Part shown: positions 12,494 to 23,523 of the stretch, piece after piece | How the letters are laid out: every line of letters begins with the position of its first letter | Position numbering within the stretch: the first letter of the stretch is position 1 | Assembly: GCA_019721075.1 (NCBI GenBank) | Contig: JAHEAD010000018.1 | Coordinates: 1-42,159, forward strand | Source: Candidatus Sysuiplasma jiujiangense | Lineage (GTDB): Archaea > Thermoplasmatota > Thermoplasmata > Sysuiplasmatales > Sysuiplasmataceae | Reading direction: 5' to 3' | Length of the DNA: 42,159 nt | The notes under the pieces: generated by a model | Seen by the model: only the letters and a program-made list of their open reading frames with translations | What the model was told of the DNA's origin: nothing | The model's database searches: none | Translations under genes and position numbers: made by a program

Positions 12494-13540
12494 TCAGGGT
12501 GACGGCTGCTGCTGGGTGGCGCAGTGTATCGTTCCGAAGCCATGAACCATGGCACTGCAGTCAATGCCCACGATACGCCTCCCCCTGAAAACATCTTTCA
12601 GGGCATCCAGTATGATGTCATCATTTCTGCATCCGAATACAGGCACCAGCACCGCTGAGTTCCCTATGTAGAAATTGGCGTAACTTGCCGGCAATCCTGC
12701 GGTGTCCGGTGTCCTGACCGGCATGGGCACCTCCACGATATCCACTTCATCCCTGCCCAGGGAAAAAGCTCTCTTCAAAATCTTCAGATTGGCATCCAGT
12801 ACTCCCCGGTTGGAATCATCCCTGTTGCTTTCCACCATGCATATGACGGTGTCCATGGAAACGAAACGGGCTACGTCGTCAATGTGACCGTCCGTGTCAT
12901 CGCCCTCTATACCGCCGCTCAGCCAGATTACCTCTTTCGCGCCGAGATACTCCCCAAGCTTCATCTCGATATCCCTCCTTCCAAGTGCCGGGTTCCTGTT
13001 TTTGTTGAGGAGGCACTGCTCTGTGGTGAGGAGCCTTCCGCTGCCGTCTACATCGATTGAACCCCCTTCAAGCACCATACCTGTCTCGACAATTTCCAGT
13101 TCGGCCGATTTGGCTATTTCCATTCCTGCAATGTTGTCCGGAAGCAGATCATCGTATTTGTTCCCCCATGCATTGAATGTCCATTTTGTCGCAACAATCT
13201 TTCGTGCATTCCTTTTTCTGACGAAAATCGGCCCGTAGTCGCGGACCCAGACGTCCGCTGCCTGTATGGTGTGGAATTTTACGTTCCTGGTGCTGTTGAG
13301 CATGGAAGTTATGTGCTCCTCAAGAGATGCGTCTGCGGCGAGTATGTCGATCCTTTCGCCCCGGGACAGTTCCTCCACTATACCGACGAATGTCTGCTCC
13401 ACCTCTTCCATTATGTCGTCCGGAAAGGTCAGTCTGTTCCCGGGCCAGGAAATCCATGTGGACTCATGTTTTTCCCACTCCGCCGGCATCCTGTACTCCG
13501 GTATCCCGTCCTTCGTAATATCATGCGGTAAGCGGATCAC
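12494..13540 (-). CDS. aguA: Agmatine deiminase (agmatine iminohydrolase)
   Basis: The 348-residue product belongs to the peptidyl-arginine deiminase fold and matches agmatine deiminases. It begins with MPAEWEKHESTWISWP, has the DVWVRDYGPIFV segment (substrate acid residues), the ggIEGDDTDGHIDD motif with the catalytic His, and the nucleophile Cys340 in GFGTIHCATQQQP at the C-terminus. It converts agmatine to N-carbamoylputrescine and ammonia in the cytosol. The ATG overlaps the stop of the upstream aguB by 4 bases, so the two steps agmatine to N-carbamoylputrescine to putrescine are encoded in one transcript. Length is usual for the family and all catalytic positions are present. Confidence 0.94.
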   Translation of the reverse strand: MIRLPHDITKDGIPEYRMPAEWEKHESTWISWPGNRLTFPDDIMEEVEQTFVGIVEELSRGERIDILAADASLEEHITSMLNSTRNVKFHTIQAADVWVRDYGPIFVRKRNARKIVATKWTFNAWGNKYDDLLPDNIAGMEIAKSAELEIVETGMVLEGGSIDVDGSGRLLTTEQCLLNKNRNPALGRRDIEMKLGEYLGAKEVIWLSGGIEGDDTDGHIDDVARFVSMDTVICMVESNRDDSNRGVLDANLKILKRAFSLGRDEVDIVEVPMPVRTPDTAGLPASYANFYIGNSAVLVPVFGCRNDDIILDALKDVFRGRRIVGIDCSAMVHGFGTIHCATQQQPSP

Positions 13541-14373
13541 CTGACCAGTCTGCCATATGTTGAGGGCATCCTGTTCCTCAGGAACCCCCAGCCTTTTTCA
13601 ATGTTTCTTCCGAGACCAGGATCGCATTCGGCAATCAGTGCCTCTTCCCCGCGTCCTCCCCTGGCAATGAAATTTCCAAACTGATCACAGACGAATGAGC
13701 CGCCCCAGAAATTCATGTCACCTTCCCTGCCTGTTCTGTTTGCGCATGCTACAATCAGACTGTTGGCTATGGCATGCCCCCTCTGTACGGCGGTCCACGC
13801 GTCCTTCCAGCTGCCTTCCGTCTGTTCTATGCCTCTCACCGTTCCTATCGCTGTCGGATAAAAAAGTATGTCCGCACCCATGAGCCTGTTGATTCGTGCA
13901 GCCTCGGAATACCACTGGTCAAAGCAGATGAGCACGCCGATCCTGCATTTCTCAGTTTTTACAACGGTGTATCTGTTTCCCGGCGAGAAGTAGTTTTTTT
14001 CATAAAAATAGGGATCCTGGGGAACATGGACTTTCCTGTATTTCCCTATCAGTCTTCCCTTCGCGTCAAAGATGAGGGAGGTGTTGTACCTCCTTCCCCC
14101 GGCCGACTCAAAGAGCGAGCCGCCTACAAGCACGACCCTGTTCTCCCTGGCTGCTGCCGAAAGCATGTCGCTCGAAGGGCCGGGAATCCTTTCTGGTTTC
14201 ACCGTACTGTTTCTGGAAGCAGGAAAGTATCTGGTGCCAAAAAGTTCGGGAAGGCAGACTATTTCCGCTCCGGATTTCGCCGCCCTGCCGACCATTTCCG
14301 ATGCCCTGTGCAGGTTCTTTTCGGCATCCCCGTGCGTCTTCATCTGAACAAGACCGACCTTGAGTTTCTCCAT
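13537..14373 (-). CDS. aguB: N-carbamoylputrescine amidase (nitrilase superfamily)
   Basis: The 278-residue product is a carbon-nitrogen hydrolase with the full Glu-Lys-Cys triad: Glu43 (CLPELFGTRYF), Lys114 (KYRKVHVP) and Cys150 (VLICFDQWYSEAAR). The LFGTRYF and FDQWYSE contexts are characteristic of N-carbamoylputrescine amidases rather than omega-amidases or beta-ureidopropionases. It hydrolyses N-carbamoylputrescine to putrescine, CO2 and ammonia. It is the first gene of the aguBA operon, with a 4-base overlap to aguA, which is the strongest support for the substrate. A 152-base gap separates it from the hyf-like operon on the same strand, so an own promoter is likely; a stretch with AATAATAAG on the minus strand near 14430 could serve. 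Confidence 0.92.
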   Translation of the reverse strand: MEKLKVGLVQMKTHGDAEKNLHRASEMVGRAAKSGAEIVCLPELFGTRYFPASRNSTVKPERIPGPSSDMLSAAARENRVVLVGGSLFESAGGRRYNTSLIFDAKGRLIGKYRKVHVPQDPYFYEKNYFSPGNRYTVVKTEKCRIGVLICFDQWYSEAARINRLMGADILFYPTAIGTVRGIEQTEGSWKDAWTAVQRGHAIANSLIVACANRTGREGDMNFWGGSFVCDQFGNFIARGGRGEEALIAECDPGLGRNIEKGWGFLRNRMPSTYGRLVR

Positions 14374-14525: not shown

Positions 14526-16376
14526 TCAGATCCACACGTATAGCAGAACGGCAATGAGTGCAGCCAGTATGTAAAGCATGTATCTTCCAATGGAGCTGTT
14601 CATGATACTTCTGCCGGAATGGTATGATATACTTCTGTATGCTCTTCCGGCCGCTTCGAGGGCATTCCACTCCCTGTTGAGAGGCGTCGTCGCGCCTGTT
14701 TCTCTTCCAAAGAGGTATCTGAACATCAGTCTCACCGGATTTGAATACTGAAACGGGCCGTAAGATCCAGGCTCAGCCATCAGGCCGCCTGCCCATACCG
14801 GTACTGTTCTTCCCTTCCTTCCTGCACCGATCAGCACGTATGCTGTTGTCGAGAAGATGAAGATCAGGCCTGCTATAAAGAACGGTGAAATAAGTCCGAA
14901 TACACCGGACGGACCAGGCGAGGTTATCAGCAGTCCATCCGGCACTGCGAGGAGACCGCCTATCAGTGACGAAATGCCGTGTCCCGTCACCATTTCTATT
15001 GCGCTATCTGCGAAATAAAGAAAGTAAGAGGACAGGATTCCCAGAAAGAGAACAACGATCCCGGCAACGGCGACTCCCGACGAAAGCAGTTTTCCGCTGC
15101 TATTACTGCCTCCTGCCGTTCCATAGCCGAAAAGTTTGCTCATCGAAACAAGCGACATGCCCCCTCCCAGTGCAACTGCGGCACCTACAAAAACTGAGAT
15201 GACAGAAACGCCTGTTCCGCCGAAGGTTACGAGAATGAACAGTGTTTCGAGCAGCATCCATTCTCCCAGTCCTCCGCCGAACGGAAGCAGACCTGCAAGG
15301 GATAATGCGCAGATGAAACCGCCTGCCGCTGCGCCCGTTCCTGGTCCCTCTGATACATTTCCGAGCAGGCCGCTCCGGGACTTCTTTTCTATGATGCCGG
15401 AAAACATGAAGAGGCCTGCCTTTCCCAGTGTATGTGCAAAGACGAACACGATCGATGTTCCAGCAGCAAAAGCGGCCAGAAGATAGTCATGATAATAGAG
15501 TGCGACCACTACGGATCCGAGTGCTATCAGCATGGAACCTCCATTTTCAACTGTGCTGTAGGCCGGTATGATCTTGACATGCTCCGCGGTTGCCGCAAAC
15601 ACGGATGCGAATACGGCGGTGAATGCTCCTGCAACCATCATGAGTATGCCGGCACCGATGGATGGTGGAGTCAGGGATATCAGACGTAATATGCAGTAGA
15701 CTGCCAGCATAGTCATTGTTGCGCTGAAGAGAACAGAACCGTTGGTGGGCGCACTGCTGTGGGCAACAGGCAGCCAGTCTGATATCAGGAAGGGCGTGAC
15801 ACCCATCTTCACCGCGAAACCGAATATTCCGAGCAGAAATGCGACTGTGGAAGTGAAGTATGTCATTTCAAACGTTCCTGTTTCAAAATACAACACTGCA
15901 GTCATCAGAAGTATGAGCAGGGTGCTCAGTTCGCTGAATATGATGAAGAGCAGCGGCGCCCTTCCATTCACATTTTTTACTGAGATTATCTGCAGATATC
16001 CTGCGATGCTCATCATTTCCCAACCGAAGAGCAGGGTGAAGAAGGAGTGCGACAGCAGTACCACCACCATCGAGAGTATTGAAACTGAATAGCCGATGGC
16101 GTTTGTTCTGGAGTTCCTGTCGTAGCCTGCAGAATAGATGGAAGAAGCTGTCCAGGCAATTGCACCGATCATCAGGAATAGTGACGAAAGTGCGTCGAGC
16201 CTGAACGATATCAGCCCGTCAATGTAGAATGTGTCGGGTGGTGCATTTATGGACAGTATGGATATGATAAATGTGATCACTGAAACAGAACCCGTCAGGG
16301 CATAGGAAAGTCTTACCCGTGCCGTCGCAACCAGTGGCGGCAGGAAGAAAAGGGCCATGACGATAAACGGATTCAC
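14526..16376 (-). CDS. HyfB/NuoL-like ion-translocating membrane subunit
   Basis: The 616-residue product has about 15 membrane segments and is a Mrp/NuoL-type antiporter-like subunit, closest in appearance to HyfB/HycC. The proton-channel helix TM5 contains the conserved Glu (LLFGWEMMSIAGYLQI), TM7 a Lys (LGIFGFAVKMGVTPF), followed by the family signature SDWLPVAHSSAPTNGSVLFSATM, and a second buried Lys in HTLGKAGLFMFSG. The C-terminal helices and an amphipathic stretch (about 540-600) resemble HyfB. It is the last gene of the six-gene operon and its ATG overlaps the stop of the small-subunit gene (16373-16376). The role is proton or Na+ translocation driven by electron transfer in the peripheral arm. 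Confidence 0.88.
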   Translation of the reverse strand: MNPFIVMALFFLPPLVATARVRLSYALTGSVSVITFIISILSINAPPDTFYIDGLISFRLDALSSLFLMIGAIAWTASSIYSAGYDRNSRTNAIGYSVSILSMVVVLLSHSFFTLLFGWEMMSIAGYLQIISVKNVNGRAPLLFIIFSELSTLLILLMTAVLYFETGTFEMTYFTSTVAFLLGIFGFAVKMGVTPFLISDWLPVAHSSAPTNGSVLFSATMTMLAVYCILRLISLTPPSIGAGILMMVAGAFTAVFASVFAATAEHVKIIPAYSTVENGGSMLIALGSVVVALYYHDYLLAAFAAGTSIVFVFAHTLGKAGLFMFSGIIEKKSRSGLLGNVSEGPGTGAAAGGFICALSLAGLLPFGGGLGEWMLLETLFILVTFGGTGVSVISVFVGAAVALGGGMSLVSMSKLFGYGTAGGSNSSGKLLSSGVAVAGIVVLFLGILSSYFLYFADSAIEMVTGHGISSLIGGLLAVPDGLLITSPGPSGVFGLISPFFIAGLIFIFSTTAYVLIGAGRKGRTVPVWAGGLMAEPGSYGPFQYSNPVRLMFRYLFGRETGATTPLNREWNALEAAGRAYRSISYHSGRSIMNSSIGRYMLYILAALIAVLLYVWI

Positions 16377-17002
16377 CTTCCTCCCCTCGCCTTGATAAGC
16401 GCGTCAAGAATTGTAAAAGGACTCGGCGGGCATCCCGGGACAAGCACATCGACTCTGACCGCGCCGGTAACTGGTCTGCCTATGATTCCGCCCGAAATTG
16501 CACAGGTACCTGCCGCTATCACCAGTTTGGGTTCAGGCATGGCATCGTATGCCGCAATGAGCACGTCATGCATTCTTTCGGCCAGCACTCCGACAACAAT
16601 CAGCGCATCCGCGTGTCTGGGTGTGCTGGTGAAGAAAATTCCGAGTCTGTTGAAGTCATAAACCGGGTTTGAAAGCGCATGCACTTCCGTATTGCATGCG
16701 CCGCAGGAACCGGTATCTATGAGATAGATGTGAAACGACTGTCTGAATGTCCTGTTGCTCTCACTCAGCAGGGCAATTCTGACATCTCCTGCCGGTTCAA
16801 ACTGTGGAGCGCATCTTCCGCAGGAAATGCACCTCTCCATGTTGACACTGTCCGCTTCAACGGCATCTGCCGGGCATTCAACGCGCCCCTCCATTTTTCT
16901 GACCGGCTTTGTGCTCCATGCCGATACGCTCTCCGCATCTCCGTCAGGAAAACGCGTGGTCACAATACCCTTCCTGAGGCCGCTTAAAATCCAGGATTTC
17001 AC
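16373..17002 (-). CDS. HyfH-HyfI fusion: ferredoxin domain plus NuoB-like small subunit
   Basis: The 209-residue product joins two subunits usually encoded separately. Residues 1-90 resemble the HyfH/HycF ferredoxin start (MKSWILSGLRKGIVTTRFPD) but keep only enough cysteines for one 4Fe-4S cluster: Cys43 (VECPADAV) with Cys58, Cys61 and Cys64 (CISCGRC). Residues 91-209 are the NuoB/HyfI-like small subunit with the four ligands of the proximal cluster: Cys100 and Cys103 (GSCGACNTEV), Cys167 (AGTCAISGG) and Cys191 (PGCPPSP). The protein would pass electrons between a soluble donor or acceptor and the membrane arm. It overlaps the genes on both sides by 4 bases. No frameshift is needed to read it as one protein. 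Confidence 0.85.
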   Translation of the reverse strand: MKSWILSGLRKGIVTTRFPDGDAESVSAWSTKPVRKMEGRVECPADAVEADSVNMERCISCGRCAPQFEPAGDVRIALLSESNRTFRQSFHIYLIDTGSCGACNTEVHALSNPVYDFNRLGIFFTSTPRHADALIVVGVLAERMHDVLIAAYDAMPEPKLVIAAGTCAISGGIIGRPVTGAVRVDVLVPGCPPSPFTILDALIKARGGR

Positions 17003-18210
17003 AACACATCACCCATCTCCGATATCCAGAAGCCGAAGCTTTCCCAGGCGAACGGAAAATCAGTCAAAACGCTGTTCTTAATTCCCTCGGCAAATGCAGG
17101 GATGTTTGCAGTCGAGGGAGACATTATGTGCAGTTCTCCGACTCCGCCTGTTCCTGTGCGCATCCAGAGGATTGTTTCCCCTCCCGGAGACTCAATTTTG
17201 CCCAGACCTTCCCCCTCTCTCAGCTCAACAGCAGACGTCTCTGCGGCATTCACATGTTCCAGGTGAGCGCAGATCTGCCCGATCACTGACGCCGATTCCT
17301 CAATTTCCTGGGCGCGAACAAGTGCTCTTGACAGCGCATCGCCCTCATATTCCCTTCTGTAGTTGAAAGAATAGTCTCCATAAGGGAGCAATTTCCCCTT
17401 CCATCTGGCGTCCACCGGAAAACCAGCAGCCCTTACAGCCGGCCCGACCATCCACTCCCTGCGGACTGTGCAGGTTCTCTGTATCCTGTCCAGAAAAAGA
17501 GTCGATTCGGACAGATGGTTCCATGTTTTCGAGAATTCACTGACTATTGCGTCCGTTGCTGCCGGCAGTCCTTCGAAGTCGATGTCTCTTCCGATGCCGC
17601 CAATCCTGTTGACGCCAAAGAAGTATCTATGGCCGAAATGCTCCGATACCAGTCTCAGCACCTTTTCCCTCAGGGTGAATATGTGTGAGGTTGCAACATT
17701 CTGTGAAGCCGCTTCGCACAGTCTCCCTATGACAAAAAGGTGGGATGCTATTCTCTCAAGTTCACACATCACCATTCTGGTCTTCTTTACATCCGGGTTT
17801 ACATCAGTTTCGCATATATTTTCGATCGTGCCGCAGAAGAGTGATGAATATGCTGCCGAATGAAATCCGTTCAGCCTCTCCAATTTTAACAGTGCCATGT
17901 CCTGCTGCATGCCGGAAATCCGAAGGCGCCTGTCCTTGAACAGGAAGTATGGAACGACTTCATCGATTGTTTCGCCCTTTGTGCTCATCAGGAATCTCAC
18001 CGCCTCAATCATCCCCCCGGAACTCGGACCATAGACGAACATACGCGTCCTGCCTGATGCTTCCGGCAGATTTGCAAAATATCTGTAATTCTCATATCTG
18101 CCGGGAACTGATTCATCTACAATTTCGGCATCATTGCTGTCTCTGAATACGGCTCTCCAGCCGCCACCTGATTTGAATGCACAGGATAGTATTCTGCCAT
18201 CGCCCGCCAT
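16999..18210 (-). CDS. Hydrogenase/complex I large subunit homologue lacking NiFe ligands
   Basis: The 403-residue product is homologous to HyfG/HycE and NuoD. The N-terminal 60 residues may be a NuoC remnant; the NuoD-like domain begins near FVYGPSSGGMIEAVRFL. In NiFe hydrogenases the first metal motif has the form R-x-C-G-x-C followed by a His/Ser; here the matching place reads LKLERLNGFHSAAYSS (about 108-123), with both cysteines absent. The C-terminal DPCxxC motif is also absent: the protein ends FPFAWESFGFWISEMGDVL. The downstream family segment CELERIASHLFVIG (about 149-162) is intact, as are conserved helices with REKVLRL. So the fold is kept but the NiFe site is gone, as in complex I and in energy-converting hydrogenase-related (Ehr) complexes. 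The ATG abuts the stop of the HyfF-like gene. The electron acceptor is unknown, perhaps a quinone. Confidence 0.86.
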   Translation of the reverse strand: MAGDGRILSCAFKSGGGWRAVFRDSNDAEIVDESVPGRYENYRYFANLPEASGRTRMFVYGPSSGGMIEAVRFLMSTKGETIDEVVPYFLFKDRRLRISGMQQDMALLKLERLNGFHSAAYSSLFCGTIENICETDVNPDVKKTRMVMCELERIASHLFVIGRLCEAASQNVATSHIFTLREKVLRLVSEHFGHRYFFGVNRIGGIGRDIDFEGLPAATDAIVSEFSKTWNHLSESTLFLDRIQRTCTVRREWMVGPAVRAAGFPVDARWKGKLLPYGDYSFNYRREYEGDALSRALVRAQEIEESASVIGQICAHLEHVNAAETSAVELREGEGLGKIESPGGETILWMRTGTGGVGELHIMSPSTANIPAFAEGIKNSVLTDFPFAWESFGFWISEMGDVL

Positions 18211-19557
18211 CTACAAACCTCCTGCCAGGAAGAATATGATGGAAACTGCCGCTGAGAGGGTGATTGATGATACAGCCACTGCCCTCTGCAGCCTTCCAGC
18301 TTCGTGCATCGTGTCGCCCGGAGAAGGGGAAAATAGCATCGAACCGACCTTCATGTTAACAGAACTGAAGGTGATGAGAATCAGCGGCGCTGTCAGTGCA
18401 ATCATTACGAACAATCCGGCATGCGCCAGTCCCATGAAAATGAGAAATATGCCAACAAAAGTACCGAACGGCGGAGCGCCTGTTACCGCGAGAGAAGAAA
18501 ACAGCATGTAAAAGGAGCTCTGAGGCATCGTCACAAGCAGTCCCTTTACATCGCCGATATTCCTCTTTCCTGTTGCAGAAAGGATGTTTCCGGAAGAGTA
18601 GAAAGCGCCCGCCTTGGCGAATGCATGTGAAACCAGAAGTACAATGGCACCGGTAAGTCCTATTCCGCCGATAACAAGACCTATGACTATCAATGCCATA
18701 TTCTCCATCGTCGAATACGCGAACATTCTCTTGTAGTAGCGTTGCGATGGCATCAGCAGTGCAGCCACTGCGATCGTGATGAACGCAAAAAACAGGTAAA
18801 GTCCTTCCACCCTGCTGCTGTATGTGATCTCATAGATGCGGTACAGGGCATAAACAGCGACCGGCAGAAGAACTCCGGAAAACATGGAACTTATTTCTGA
18901 CGGTGCCTCGCTGTGCGCATCAGGCAGCCAGGTGTGCATAGGCACGAGCCCGATCTTTGTGCCGAAACCTATCAGTGCAGTTGCTGCCGCAATTTCAGTT
19001 ATCAGAGATACGGAGTGGACAGAGGAGATCAGATTGTATATGTCAAGTGTTCCGAATGCCCTGTATATCATAACGATTGAAATCAGACTTATGGCAAGAC
19101 CTGACGAAACTATTATGACGTATCTCCAGGCAGCTTCAACATTGAGTCTGTTTTCCTCTATGACGAGCAGAAGGGCACTGCTTACGGTGGTCAGCTCGAT
19201 CCCGATCCAGAGAAAACCGTAGTTGTTGACTGTCAGTGAAAAGAGCATGGAGGCGACAAACAGATGCATCATTGAAAGATGCAGGCGCATATTCCTGGAT
19301 TCGCCGAGATGGTGATGGTAGCCAAGGGCAAACAGGGTGGACATCAGATATACAATCGAGACTGTGAGGATCAGAATGCGACTCATTGTGTCAAGCAGAA
19401 AGAATCCGTGCGAGTCAGTCGAAAGCATGTTCAATGCCGCTGCAAGCAGCAAGGTCAGCAGTGCCGACACCACCGAAAGAGCTTTGAACCTGGCAAAAAA
19501 ATAGGATGCGGAGAAGAGGGCAGGCACAGATATCAGAAGTAATATCAGGAGATTCAT
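18211..19557 (-). CDS. HyfF/NuoN-like ion-translocating membrane subunit
   Basis: The 448-residue product has about 13-14 membrane segments and belongs to the NuoM/NuoN/HyfF antiporter-like family. Conserved charged residues are in place: Glu in TM5 (YGFLWIGIELTTVSSALLL), Lys in GFGTKIGLVPMHTWLPDAH, the signature SEAPSEISSMFSGVLLP, and Lys in HAFAKAGAFYSSGN. Length and the pattern after LPDAH fit HyfF (hydrogenase-4 component F). It is the third gene of the operon, overlapping the HyfE-like gene by 4 bases upstream and touching the large-subunit gene downstream. Together with the HyfB-like subunit it gives the complex two ion-pumping modules. Confidence 0.88.
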   Translation of the reverse strand: MNLLILLLISVPALFSASYFFARFKALSVVSALLTLLLAAALNMLSTDSHGFFLLDTMSRILILTVSIVYLMSTLFALGYHHHLGESRNMRLHLSMMHLFVASMLFSLTVNNYGFLWIGIELTTVSSALLLVIEENRLNVEAAWRYVIIVSSGLAISLISIVMIYRAFGTLDIYNLISSVHSVSLITEIAAATALIGFGTKIGLVPMHTWLPDAHSEAPSEISSMFSGVLLPVAVYALYRIYEITYSSRVEGLYLFFAFITIAVAALLMPSQRYYKRMFAYSTMENMALIVIGLVIGGIGLTGAIVLLVSHAFAKAGAFYSSGNILSATGKRNIGDVKGLLVTMPQSSFYMLFSSLAVTGAPPFGTFVGIFLIFMGLAHAGLFVMIALTAPLILITFSSVNMKVGSMLFSPSPGDTMHEAGRLQRAVAVSSITLSAAVSIIFFLAGGL

Positions 19558-20171
19558 CCCATCAGCTCCTCAATGTCCCTGTGAACTATCTCCTGCCGCA
19601 CAAGGACCGCGCTTATAATCACCAGAGCAAGGACGTCAAGCAGTACGCTTATCTCGATCAGGAGCGGGAGTGGAGCAATAGTCAGGCTCATGAATATTAT
19701 TCCGTTCTCCTCTTCGACATAACCTATAACGTGGGCAAAACTGTTCCTTCTGGACATTATCAGAAGAAAACCCTGAAGCATGACTGCGAAGCCTATTGAG
19801 CCAAGCGGATCGGAGACTGCCGGATAAATTACAATGCGGTATATCACAAAGGACAGTATGAGCACGAGGACGGATGCCACAGCAACAGTCGCAGCCTCAT
19901 GTGAGTACTCCCTGGCATACATACCCCTAAGCGGTATCTTTCTTTCAAGTATCCTGGTGAGAAGGTATCCCCGCAACACGAATATCAGTACGGCAAGCAC
20001 TATCAGAGCTGGAGATTGACCGATGATGCCAAAATATCCGACCGCAAGAGCCAGCAGCACTGACTGGGTTGTTACAGTGCGTACGGCCGGCCTTATGTAT
20101 GATCTCAACTGTATGCTCAGCGCCGAGACAATTATCAGAACGCCCAGTATTGCAAGTATTTCGTAATTCAA
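19554..20171 (-). CDS. HyfE-like membrane subunit
   Basis: The 205-residue product has about six membrane helices and resembles HyfE, the component of hydrogenase-4 type complexes whose C-terminal half is related to NuoK. The last part (GYVEEENGIIFMSLTI, then LPLLIEISVLLDVLALV) holds membrane-buried acidic residues in the NuoK-like arrangement. Its position between the NuoH-like and NuoN-like genes, with 4-base overlaps on both sides, supports the assignment, which rests on pattern and context more than on a strong motif. It would link the ion path between the heel subunit and the antiporter-like subunits. Confidence 0.8.
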   Translation of the reverse strand: MNYEILAILGVLIIVSALSIQLRSYIRPAVRTVTTQSVLLALAVGYFGIIGQSPALIVLAVLIFVLRGYLLTRILERKIPLRGMYAREYSHEAATVAVASVLVLILSFVIYRIVIYPAVSDPLGSIGFAVMLQGFLLIMSRRNSFAHVIGYVEEENGIIFMSLTIAPLPLLIEISVLLDVLALVIISAVLVRQEIVHRDIEELMG

Positions 20172-21115
20172 ACAATACCACCAAGCGAGTATGTTATAAT
20201 GGAAAGAATCGCCAGTGCAAAGGAAACAGACAGGAAATCCTGAATCTTGAAAAGGCGTAGTTTTGCAAATGTTTCCTCAAAGCCTGCAAGTATCATAATG
20301 AGAAGTATCCACTTTGCCAGCATGATTGGAAAATCAGCAGCCGTTCCGGCGATTCCGCTCTGCATGAACCATGGAAAAAGGAAGACATTCAGGAACACGG
20401 AACCGAGAAGGTACTGCTTTATCATCGACGAATACTTCAGAAGGAAAAGATTTTTTCCGCTGTATTCATACAGCCTCCCCTCATCTATCATACCGAGCTC
20501 GTTGAGACTCTGGCTTTCCACCGGAAGCTTGCCTGTTTCAAAGAGAAGAAGCATGAAGAATGCGGCCGTCGATAGTAGATGGGGGAGCGACATATAAGAG
20601 GCGGACGAGGCGACGAGCACGTTGTTTGTGACGTACGGATTGTTTGTTCCGCTTATGATTGCAACTGCAAAGAAGACCATGATAAGTGTAGGTTCGGCGA
20701 ACGCAGAAAAGACAACAGATCTGCTAGCACCCAGTCTGGTGAACTGATTTCCCGCATTGATGGCTGCTATTACCTGCAGGAATGATGCAAGGGTGAAAAG
20801 TAGGGCGCCTCCAAGGAAATCGGCGGAAGGCGTGAAAAAGACTGGGAATGGCGCTATAACCGGTATAATGAATGAAATGAGTATGTATATTCCGAAGACG
20901 ATAAAGGGAACTGCTGAAAAGATTATCGAGGAACTGTGGTTTTTTAAATTCTCCTTGCGCAGGAGTTTCGCGAGGTCAAAATAAGGCTGCAGTATACGCA
21001 CGCCCTTTCGCGACTCGATCCTTGATTTTACCTTCGAAAGCAGGCCGGCTACCAGTGGCGCAAGTACAAGAACTCCAGCAAGCTGCATTGCCGTCTCCGC
21101 CAGGATTGCAAACAT
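20168..21115 (-). CDS. HyfC/NuoH-like membrane subunit
   Basis: The 315-residue product has about eight membrane helices and matches the NuoH/HyfC/HycD family. Family features are the first cytosolic loop (SKVKSRIESRKGVRILQPYFDLAKLLRKE, seen as an R-x-G-x-x-I-x-Q-P-Y-x-D-x-x-K-L pattern), the acidic membrane helix FMLLLFETGKLPVESQSLNELGMIDEGRLYEYSGK read in pieces (ETGKLPVES; EGRLYEYSG), and a C-terminal helix pair. This subunit anchors the peripheral arm and lines the proposed quinone/proton site. It is the first gene of the six-gene operon; a TATA-like box at 21206-21216 would give a leader of about 70 bases. The next gene overlaps by 4 bases. Confidence 0.88.
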   Translation of the reverse strand: MFAILAETAMQLAGVLVLAPLVAGLLSKVKSRIESRKGVRILQPYFDLAKLLRKENLKNHSSSIIFSAVPFIVFGIYILISFIIPVIAPFPVFFTPSADFLGGALLFTLASFLQVIAAINAGNQFTRLGASRSVVFSAFAEPTLIMVFFAVAIISGTNNPYVTNNVLVASSASYMSLPHLLSTAAFFMLLLFETGKLPVESQSLNELGMIDEGRLYEYSGKNLFLLKYSSMIKQYLLGSVFLNVFLFPWFMQSGIAGTAADFPIMLAKWILLIMILAGFEETFAKLRLFKIQDFLSVSFALAILSIITYSLGGIV

Positions 21116-22680: not shown

Positions 22681-22700
22681 TCAGATGCAAATCAGTGATT

Positions 22701-23153
22701 ATGGATAGCAAGAGGCAGGTTGTGCTGATTCTTTCCCTGCTTGTCCTCATCGAATATGTTCTCGGAGGCTTTGTTACATTTGATGATCCGACAAACGCCG
22801 GTTTCAGTCTTGCATCATTCTCTCTATCGTATCCGGCGGTTCTTCCGCTAATTCACAGGCTGTTTGCCGTTTTGCTCATTCTGTCATGGATTGTAGGCTC
22901 CTTTTACCTCAAAGGCACGGCTGCATTCAGGATGTCCCATATGACAATCGGACTGATGTTCATTCAGGCGTTTATAGGGGCGCTGATACCGGCAACACTG
23001 TCGGACGGTGTGCTCAACGCCTATGTGATAATAGCCCATTTCAGCGTTAGCGGGCTTGTCATCATAGGAACCGGTTTCACGCTGTACCTCGGCTGGTTTC
23101 TGAAAGGCCATCCCGCCCCCAGTACAGCGCATAGGCTGCAAGAAACGAGGTGA
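22701..23153 (+). CDS. Half-size CtaA/Cox15-like protein (heme A synthase type), copy 1
   Basis: The product (150 residues from ATG 22701) has four membrane helices and corresponds to half of an eight-helix heme A synthase. Numbering from a possible GTG at 22695, His54 in PLIHRLFAVLLILSW and His115 in IIAHFSVSGLVI are placed as the heme-ligand His pair of a CtaA half. TM1 carries LIEYVLGGFVTFDDP, and TM3 carries FIQAFIGALIPAT, both similar to the second copy. Half-size members are known from archaea such as Aeropyrum. The role would be heme A formation (oxidation of the heme O methyl group) for a terminal oxidase, or another heme-linked membrane function. It is convergent with, and overlaps by 77 bases, copy 2. 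Confidence 0.78.
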   Translation: MDSKRQVVLILSLLVLIEYVLGGFVTFDDPTNAGFSLASFSLSYPAVLPLIHRLFAVLLILSWIVGSFYLKGTAAFRMSHMTIGLMFIQAFIGALIPATLSDGVLNAYVIIAHFSVSGLVIIGTGFTLYLGWFLKGHPAPSTAHRLQETR

Positions 23154-23523
23154 CGAGAAGAAGGAGACCCGCATTGCCCTCATGGAGGACAACGAAAGGC
23201 GGATAGTCGTAGTTCCATATCGTGATCGCTCCAAATGATGCCTGCAGTATTAGAAGGACAAAAGCAACTATGGACAACTCCTTAAGCCCTCTGGGCGCCT
23301 TTCTTTCCGTAAAGACAACTATTATGTTGATGAGAAAAACAAGTACGATAACCAGCGCGACAAGCCTGTGCACTTCCTCTATCACGCCAGGCCAGCTAAG
23401 GACAATTTTTGTGTAAGGGAAATCGTTGTATGACGGATCCAGGAAGACAACCGATGCGGCAACAACATACTCAATCCATACGGTTATGAGTGAAACGAGG
23501 GCTGTCAATTTGTAAGGTTTCAT
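23077..23523 (-). CDS. Half-size CtaA/Cox15-like protein (heme A synthase type), copy 2
   Basis: The 148-residue product has four membrane helices. His52 (EEVHRLVALVIVLVF) and His114 (FVVLHEGNAGLLLL) match the positions of the His pair in copy 1, and the preceding LILQASFGAITIWNYDYPP is a good fit to the CtaA segment between TM3 and TM4. TM1 has WIEYVVAASVVFLDP, similar to copy 1. A Shine-Dalgarno-like GAAAGGA lies just before the ATG at 23523. The last 77 bases overlap the end of copy 1 on the opposite strand, so the non-conserved C-terminal tails are encoded antisense to each other. The two proteins could form a heterodimer equal to a full heme A synthase; that is inference. Confidence 0.82.
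   Translation of the reverse strand: MKPYKLTALVSLITVWIEYVVAASVVFLDPSYNDFPYTKIVLSWPGVIEEVHRLVALVIVLVFLINIIVVFTERKAPRGLKELSIVAFVLLILQASFGAITIWNYDYPPFVVLHEGNAGLLLLVTSFLAAYALYWGRDGLSETSRGTA

Follow-up and report, generated by a model that had tools for sequence, protein, structure and literature searches.

Energy-converting hydrogenase-related (Ehr) complexes are relatives of hydrogenases and complex I. They have been described in Sulfobacillus (PMC4378227), comammox Nitrospira (PMC10284858) and Margulisbacteria (PMC6349859), with functions that are at most conjectured, and the papers on Ehr function that our searches turned up were all comparative genomics. Yelton et al. (2013; PMC3750248) reported putative group 4 hydrogenase or hydrogenase 4 genes without both nickel-binding motifs, possibly with another function, in acid-mine Thermoplasmatales, which belong to the same class as the archaeon studied here. 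Relative to MBH, the MBS complex of P. furiosus lacks three residues of the proximal loop, leaving one iron free for catalysis (PMC7684303).

We analysed a 42,159-nucleotide stretch of DNA (the window), contig C18 of the 2.29-Mb, 97% complete genome of the acid-loving archaeon Candidatus Sysuiplasma jiujiangense, to which Thermoplasmata metagenome assemblies are the closest named relatives. The window contains a minus-strand operon (21115-14526) of six open reading frames in the order C-E-F-G-HI-B, and the evidence supports its assignment as an Ehr complex rather than a hydrogenase. Because loss of the motifs had already been reported in 2013 (PMC3750248), in a publication missed by an earlier model annotation of the same DNA (the sequence-only reading), the window complex adds a member to a known class. 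The 2013 study covered presence and motif loss; here, for another species, we describe how the operon and its subunits are built, together with a tree and the genome context.

Comparison with described complexes

As in the Ehr complexes of Sulfobacillus, Nitrospira and Margulisbacteria, HyfB-, HyfE- and NuoH-like subunits accompany a large subunit without both CxxC motifs; for some of those complexes formate dehydrogenase has been proposed as a partner, whereas the window genome has no molybdopterin oxidoreductase. A six-gene cluster on the Mycobacterium branderi plasmid pJCM12687 (L082:3427-10866) matches the window operon in gene content and order and encodes the nearest bacterial large subunit in our tree, although that protein is longer, with an N-terminal extension, and has Glu in place of the first Cys and Gly in place of the last. 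E. coli Hyf and Hyc have homologous membrane and arm subunits but, unlike the window complex, retain all four nickel ligands, have HycF and HycG as separate proteins and are encoded near maturation genes. In P. furiosus MBS and complex I, too, the arm and pumps are related and the nickel site is incomplete, but MBS has the shortened proximal loop and complex I a His/Tyr quinone pair and tandem Cys, neither of which occurs in the window complex.

Operon organization

Each open reading frame matched its expected family, bearing out the gene order and coordinates of the sequence-only reading; down the operon, the Pfam and NCBIfam matches were NADHdh/NuoH, hydrogenase 4 membrane subunit, Proton_antipo_M, Complex1_49kDa, Oxidored_q6 and Proton_antipo_M. 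The products are a 315-aa NuoH/HyfC-like membrane subunit (20168..21115; PF00146, E = 1.9e-28), a 205-aa HyfE-like membrane subunit with a TTG start (19554..20171; NCBIfam hydrogenase 4 membrane subunit, E = 8.2e-10, under its cut-off), a 448-aa HyfF-like antiporter-type pump subunit (18211..19557; PF00361, E = 1.1e-44), the 403-aa large subunit (16999..18210; PF00346, E = 3e-24), a 209-aa fused HyfH-HyfI-like small subunit (16373..17002; PF01058, E = 2.3e-23) and a 616-aa HyfB-like antiporter-type pump subunit (14526..16376; PF00361, E = 2.6e-18), all encoded on the minus strand. The 4-base overlaps described earlier are present at four of the five junctions (TTGA between the first two genes, then ATGA, GTGA and GTGA); genes F and G merely abut (18211/18210). 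The gene order was identical in all 18 complete related loci.

Loss of the nickel-iron site

Alignment with E. coli HycE and HyfG placed N114, H117, W395 and E398 at the four nickel-ligand Cys positions of the large subunit, in agreement with the earlier claim that both Cys pairs are gone. The residues R112-L-N-G-F-H117 (17860..17877, minus strand) stand in place of the first R-x-C-G-x-C motif, and S391-FGFWISE-398 (17017..17040, minus strand) in place of the C-terminal S-x-D-P-C-x-x-C motif. The protein has seven Cys and no CxxC, and ends five residues past E398 without a cleavable tail. In an alignment of 19 rows of the window type, N occupies the first Cys site in 14 rows and a single Cys in one; H, Y, F or L stands at the second site, mostly W at the third, and E or D at the fourth in 18 rows, with the remaining row gapped.

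Two other features are hydrogenase-like: the first motif retains its glycine and the GPxxGGxxE loop its E69. Both quinone ligands of complex I are absent, with I68 for Nqo4 H38 and G115 for Nqo4 Y87, the ligand positions in the complex I structure. The predicted structure of the large subunit (pLDDT 88.8, pTM 0.91) matched the E. coli FHL large subunit 7z0s_E (HycE) with a TM score of 0.86, the best query-normalised value among the matches listed, versus 0.75-0.79 for complex I 49-kDa subunits. The PF00346 match, the pLDDT and the conserved gene order in the 18 complete loci together reject a chance match.

The sequence-only reading had raised two ways in which the loss might be illusory, a sequencing error and a second large-subunit gene that keeps the Cys motifs. 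None of the large-subunit relatives retrieved by search has a CxxC, and since the loss is common to relatives and the frame is intact, we reject sequencing error as its cause, and decay likewise. We found no second nickel-iron large subunit in the host genome, where PF00374 matched only the NuoD of a separate complex I on contig C12, the sole other 49-kDa-family protein. Genome G161 has a second large-subunit copy that is broken into two frames (L080:6713-7923).

Electron wire and membrane subunits

The small subunit has eight Cys that do not vary among the 14 sequences compared. C43, C58, C61 and C64 form one ferredoxin-type 4Fe-4S site, and C100, C103, C167 and C191 the proximal 4Fe-4S site. 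The sequence-only reading listed four cluster Cys in this subunit among the key residues kept; of the two ferredoxin-type clusters for which HycF/HyfH have Cys, however, the window protein retains one. The proximal-cluster loop has hydrogenase length (ID-TGS-CGAC in the window, VD-CGG-CNGC in HycG), and the tandem Cys of NuoB is missing. In an f13 genome, the small subunit (L055:8629-9177) lacks most of the N-terminal ferredoxin-type Cys.

The membrane subunits largely, though not entirely, fit the earlier statement that key residues are kept. Equivalents of NuoH E157/E228 (E141/E217) are present in 19/19 sequences of the C subunit; E120, K190 and K319 of the B subunit are invariant in 22/22 sequences, with E372 in 17; and E121, K201 and K315 of the F subunit are invariant in 21. 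The exception lies in the HyfF-like subunit, where the TM12 Glu (NuoM E407) is Ile370 in the window (bases 18448-18450), Val in the same-genus relative L038 (L038:8144-9490) and Glu in 18 others. Ile370 may weaken one pump.

Phylogeny, distribution and genome context

The sequence-only reading had proposed a large-subunit tree together with the alignment. In our tree, which is unrooted and is without Ehr proteins of Geobacter and Sulfobacillus, nickel-iron hydrogenases and complex I were split by a branch of 100/100 support from the window-type Thermoplasmata clade, M. branderi and a second Cys-less type. A root outside complex I would mean separate losses of the nickel ligands in Ehr and complex I. 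The second Cys-less type is marked by the motifs ERISGD ... PDFPLxNKSFNLSYSGxDL and was seen both in other Thermoplasmata and on plasmids of bacteria (L061, L062, L064-L067, L070, L076, L077, L081, L083-L086 and L088).

The window-type complex is conserved in five families of the class, and its large subunit is carried by 44 of 200 class genomes, a score-based figure counted by hand from a table, with a subset read residue by residue. Carriers rarely have HypD (4/44, versus 103/156 other genomes) and mostly have a heme-copper or bd oxidase (40/44, versus 45/156). These co-occurrences follow phylogeny, so the Fisher test, which ignores it, overstates them and its values are indicative only. Four carriers (G013, G059, G173 and G136) lack both oxidases.

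The host genome has lost the nickel maturation system: hypD, detected in 107 of the 200 class genomes, is absent. Neither the NADH-module protein NuoF (PF01512) nor any molybdopterin oxidoreductase, including the formate dehydrogenase type (PF00384), was found in this 97% complete genome, and two genes for 2-oxoacid:ferredoxin oxidoreductases are present. G020, a genome of the same family, encodes a nickel-iron large subunit in which CGIC and CFGC are present (L056:8981-10213), ~7 kb from hypD.

Assignment of the complex

The large subunit is group-4-hydrogenase-like without both nickel-iron CxxC motifs, it clusters with other Cys-less proteins, and a small subunit, a NuoH-like connector and antiporter-type subunits are encoded with it in one operon. 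The residue replacements, the absence of HypD and of a second nickel-iron large subunit, the five-family conservation, the tree and the bacterial six-gene cluster bear out the proposal of the sequence-only reading that this is an Ehr-type complex and not a hydrogenase. Its warning about automatic annotation was also justified: NCBIfam 'hydrogenase 4 subunit F' scored 430.1 bits on the F subunit (cut-off 437), and the labels 'hydrogenase 4' and 'formate hydrogenlyase' on genes of this operon are wrong.

Proposed function

As our best explanation, at a probability of roughly 0.45, we propose that the complex oxidizes reduced ferredoxin and pumps protons, and that in species that respire its most probable acceptor is quinone. 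Ferredoxin reduced by the 2-oxoacid:ferredoxin oxidoreductases would donate electrons to the small subunit's N-terminal cluster, from which they would pass to the proximal cluster and on to an acceptor in the former nickel-iron cavity. This two-cluster wire in a hydrogenase-like arm, joined to the NuoH-like connector, the HyfE-like subunit and two antiporter-type pumps, would allow the energy of electron transfer to drive proton transport. In respiring species, the quinone pool would most likely act as the acceptor, with binding that dispenses with the complex I His/Tyr pair. We counted in favour of this proposal the intact operon with its pump families, the eight invariant Cys, the 100/100 half of the tree, the M. 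branderi cluster, the lack of HypD, of another nickel-iron large subunit, of NuoF and of molybdopterin oxidoreductases, the two 2-oxoacid:ferredoxin oxidoreductases, the oxidase co-occurrence and the retained E69. Its probability is held down mainly by the missing quinone ligands and by the four carriers without oxidases, which imply that one acceptor may not serve all carriers.

A fuller version appears doubtful. It would make the Thermoplasmata type a two-cluster, six-subunit ferredoxin:quinone oxidoreductase with quinone in a hydrogenase-derived cavity lacking His/Tyr, and with pump stoichiometry altered in the window genus by Ile or Val for the TM12 Glu. If true, quinone binding without His/Tyr would be a third solution beside those of hydrogenase and complex I. 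A compact two-cluster archaeal Ehr complex, in a genome without nickel maturation, molybdopterin formate dehydrogenase or an NADH module, leaves fewer candidates for donor and acceptor and would offer a simple system for learning Ehr function.

It is unlikely that the complex passes electrons from ferredoxin to NAD(P)+ or a disulfide as soluble acceptor, by way of a partner whose gene lies elsewhere. In the related loci compared, no neighbouring gene accompanies the operon from one genus to another, so that a partner could be unlinked, and carriers that lack oxidases may depend on an acceptor other than quinone; the lack of any accompanying gene also speaks against such a partner, as does the lack of a NuoF-type NADH module. 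With zero PF01512 and zero PF00384 proteins in the genome, we rejected both an NADH-module and a formate-dehydrogenase partner.

Some Thermoplasmatales respire sulfur, which would suit an MBS-like ferredoxin:sulfane sulfur reductase, with polysulfide reduced by the proximal iron-sulfur cluster itself. The large subunit of P. furiosus MBS is also partly stripped of Cys and is accompanied by two pumps (PMC7684303), but the Cys that it retains (C85 and C385) are absent from the window protein too. MBS catalysis needs the shortened proximal loop, with a cluster held by three Cys, whereas the window loop, judged by length against HycG, lacks the three-residue shortening, and the site has four invariant Cys. 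Loop length thus disfavours the MBS mechanism, and we regard this function as quite unlikely.

A redox-silent proton or sodium transporter with a purely structural arm would agree with an old site devoid of known catalytic residues, but eight cluster Cys would hardly stay invariant across the family without electron transfer, making this highly improbable. Formate hydrogenlyase or hydrogenase activity, suggested by subunit names from NCBIfam matches, is contradicted by the absence of nickel ligands, HypD and molybdopterin formate dehydrogenase and merits virtually no weight.

Neighbouring genes

A partner sought by gene neighbourhood was rejected, none being conserved. Genes for agmatine deiminase and N-carbamoylputrescine amidase (window 12494-14373) lie downstream on the same strand and adjoin the operon only in the closest relative. 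Two convergent, overlapping genes for small membrane proteins (22695-23153, plus strand; 23077-23523, minus strand) are both present in L038, and one of them matches part of COX15-CtaA.
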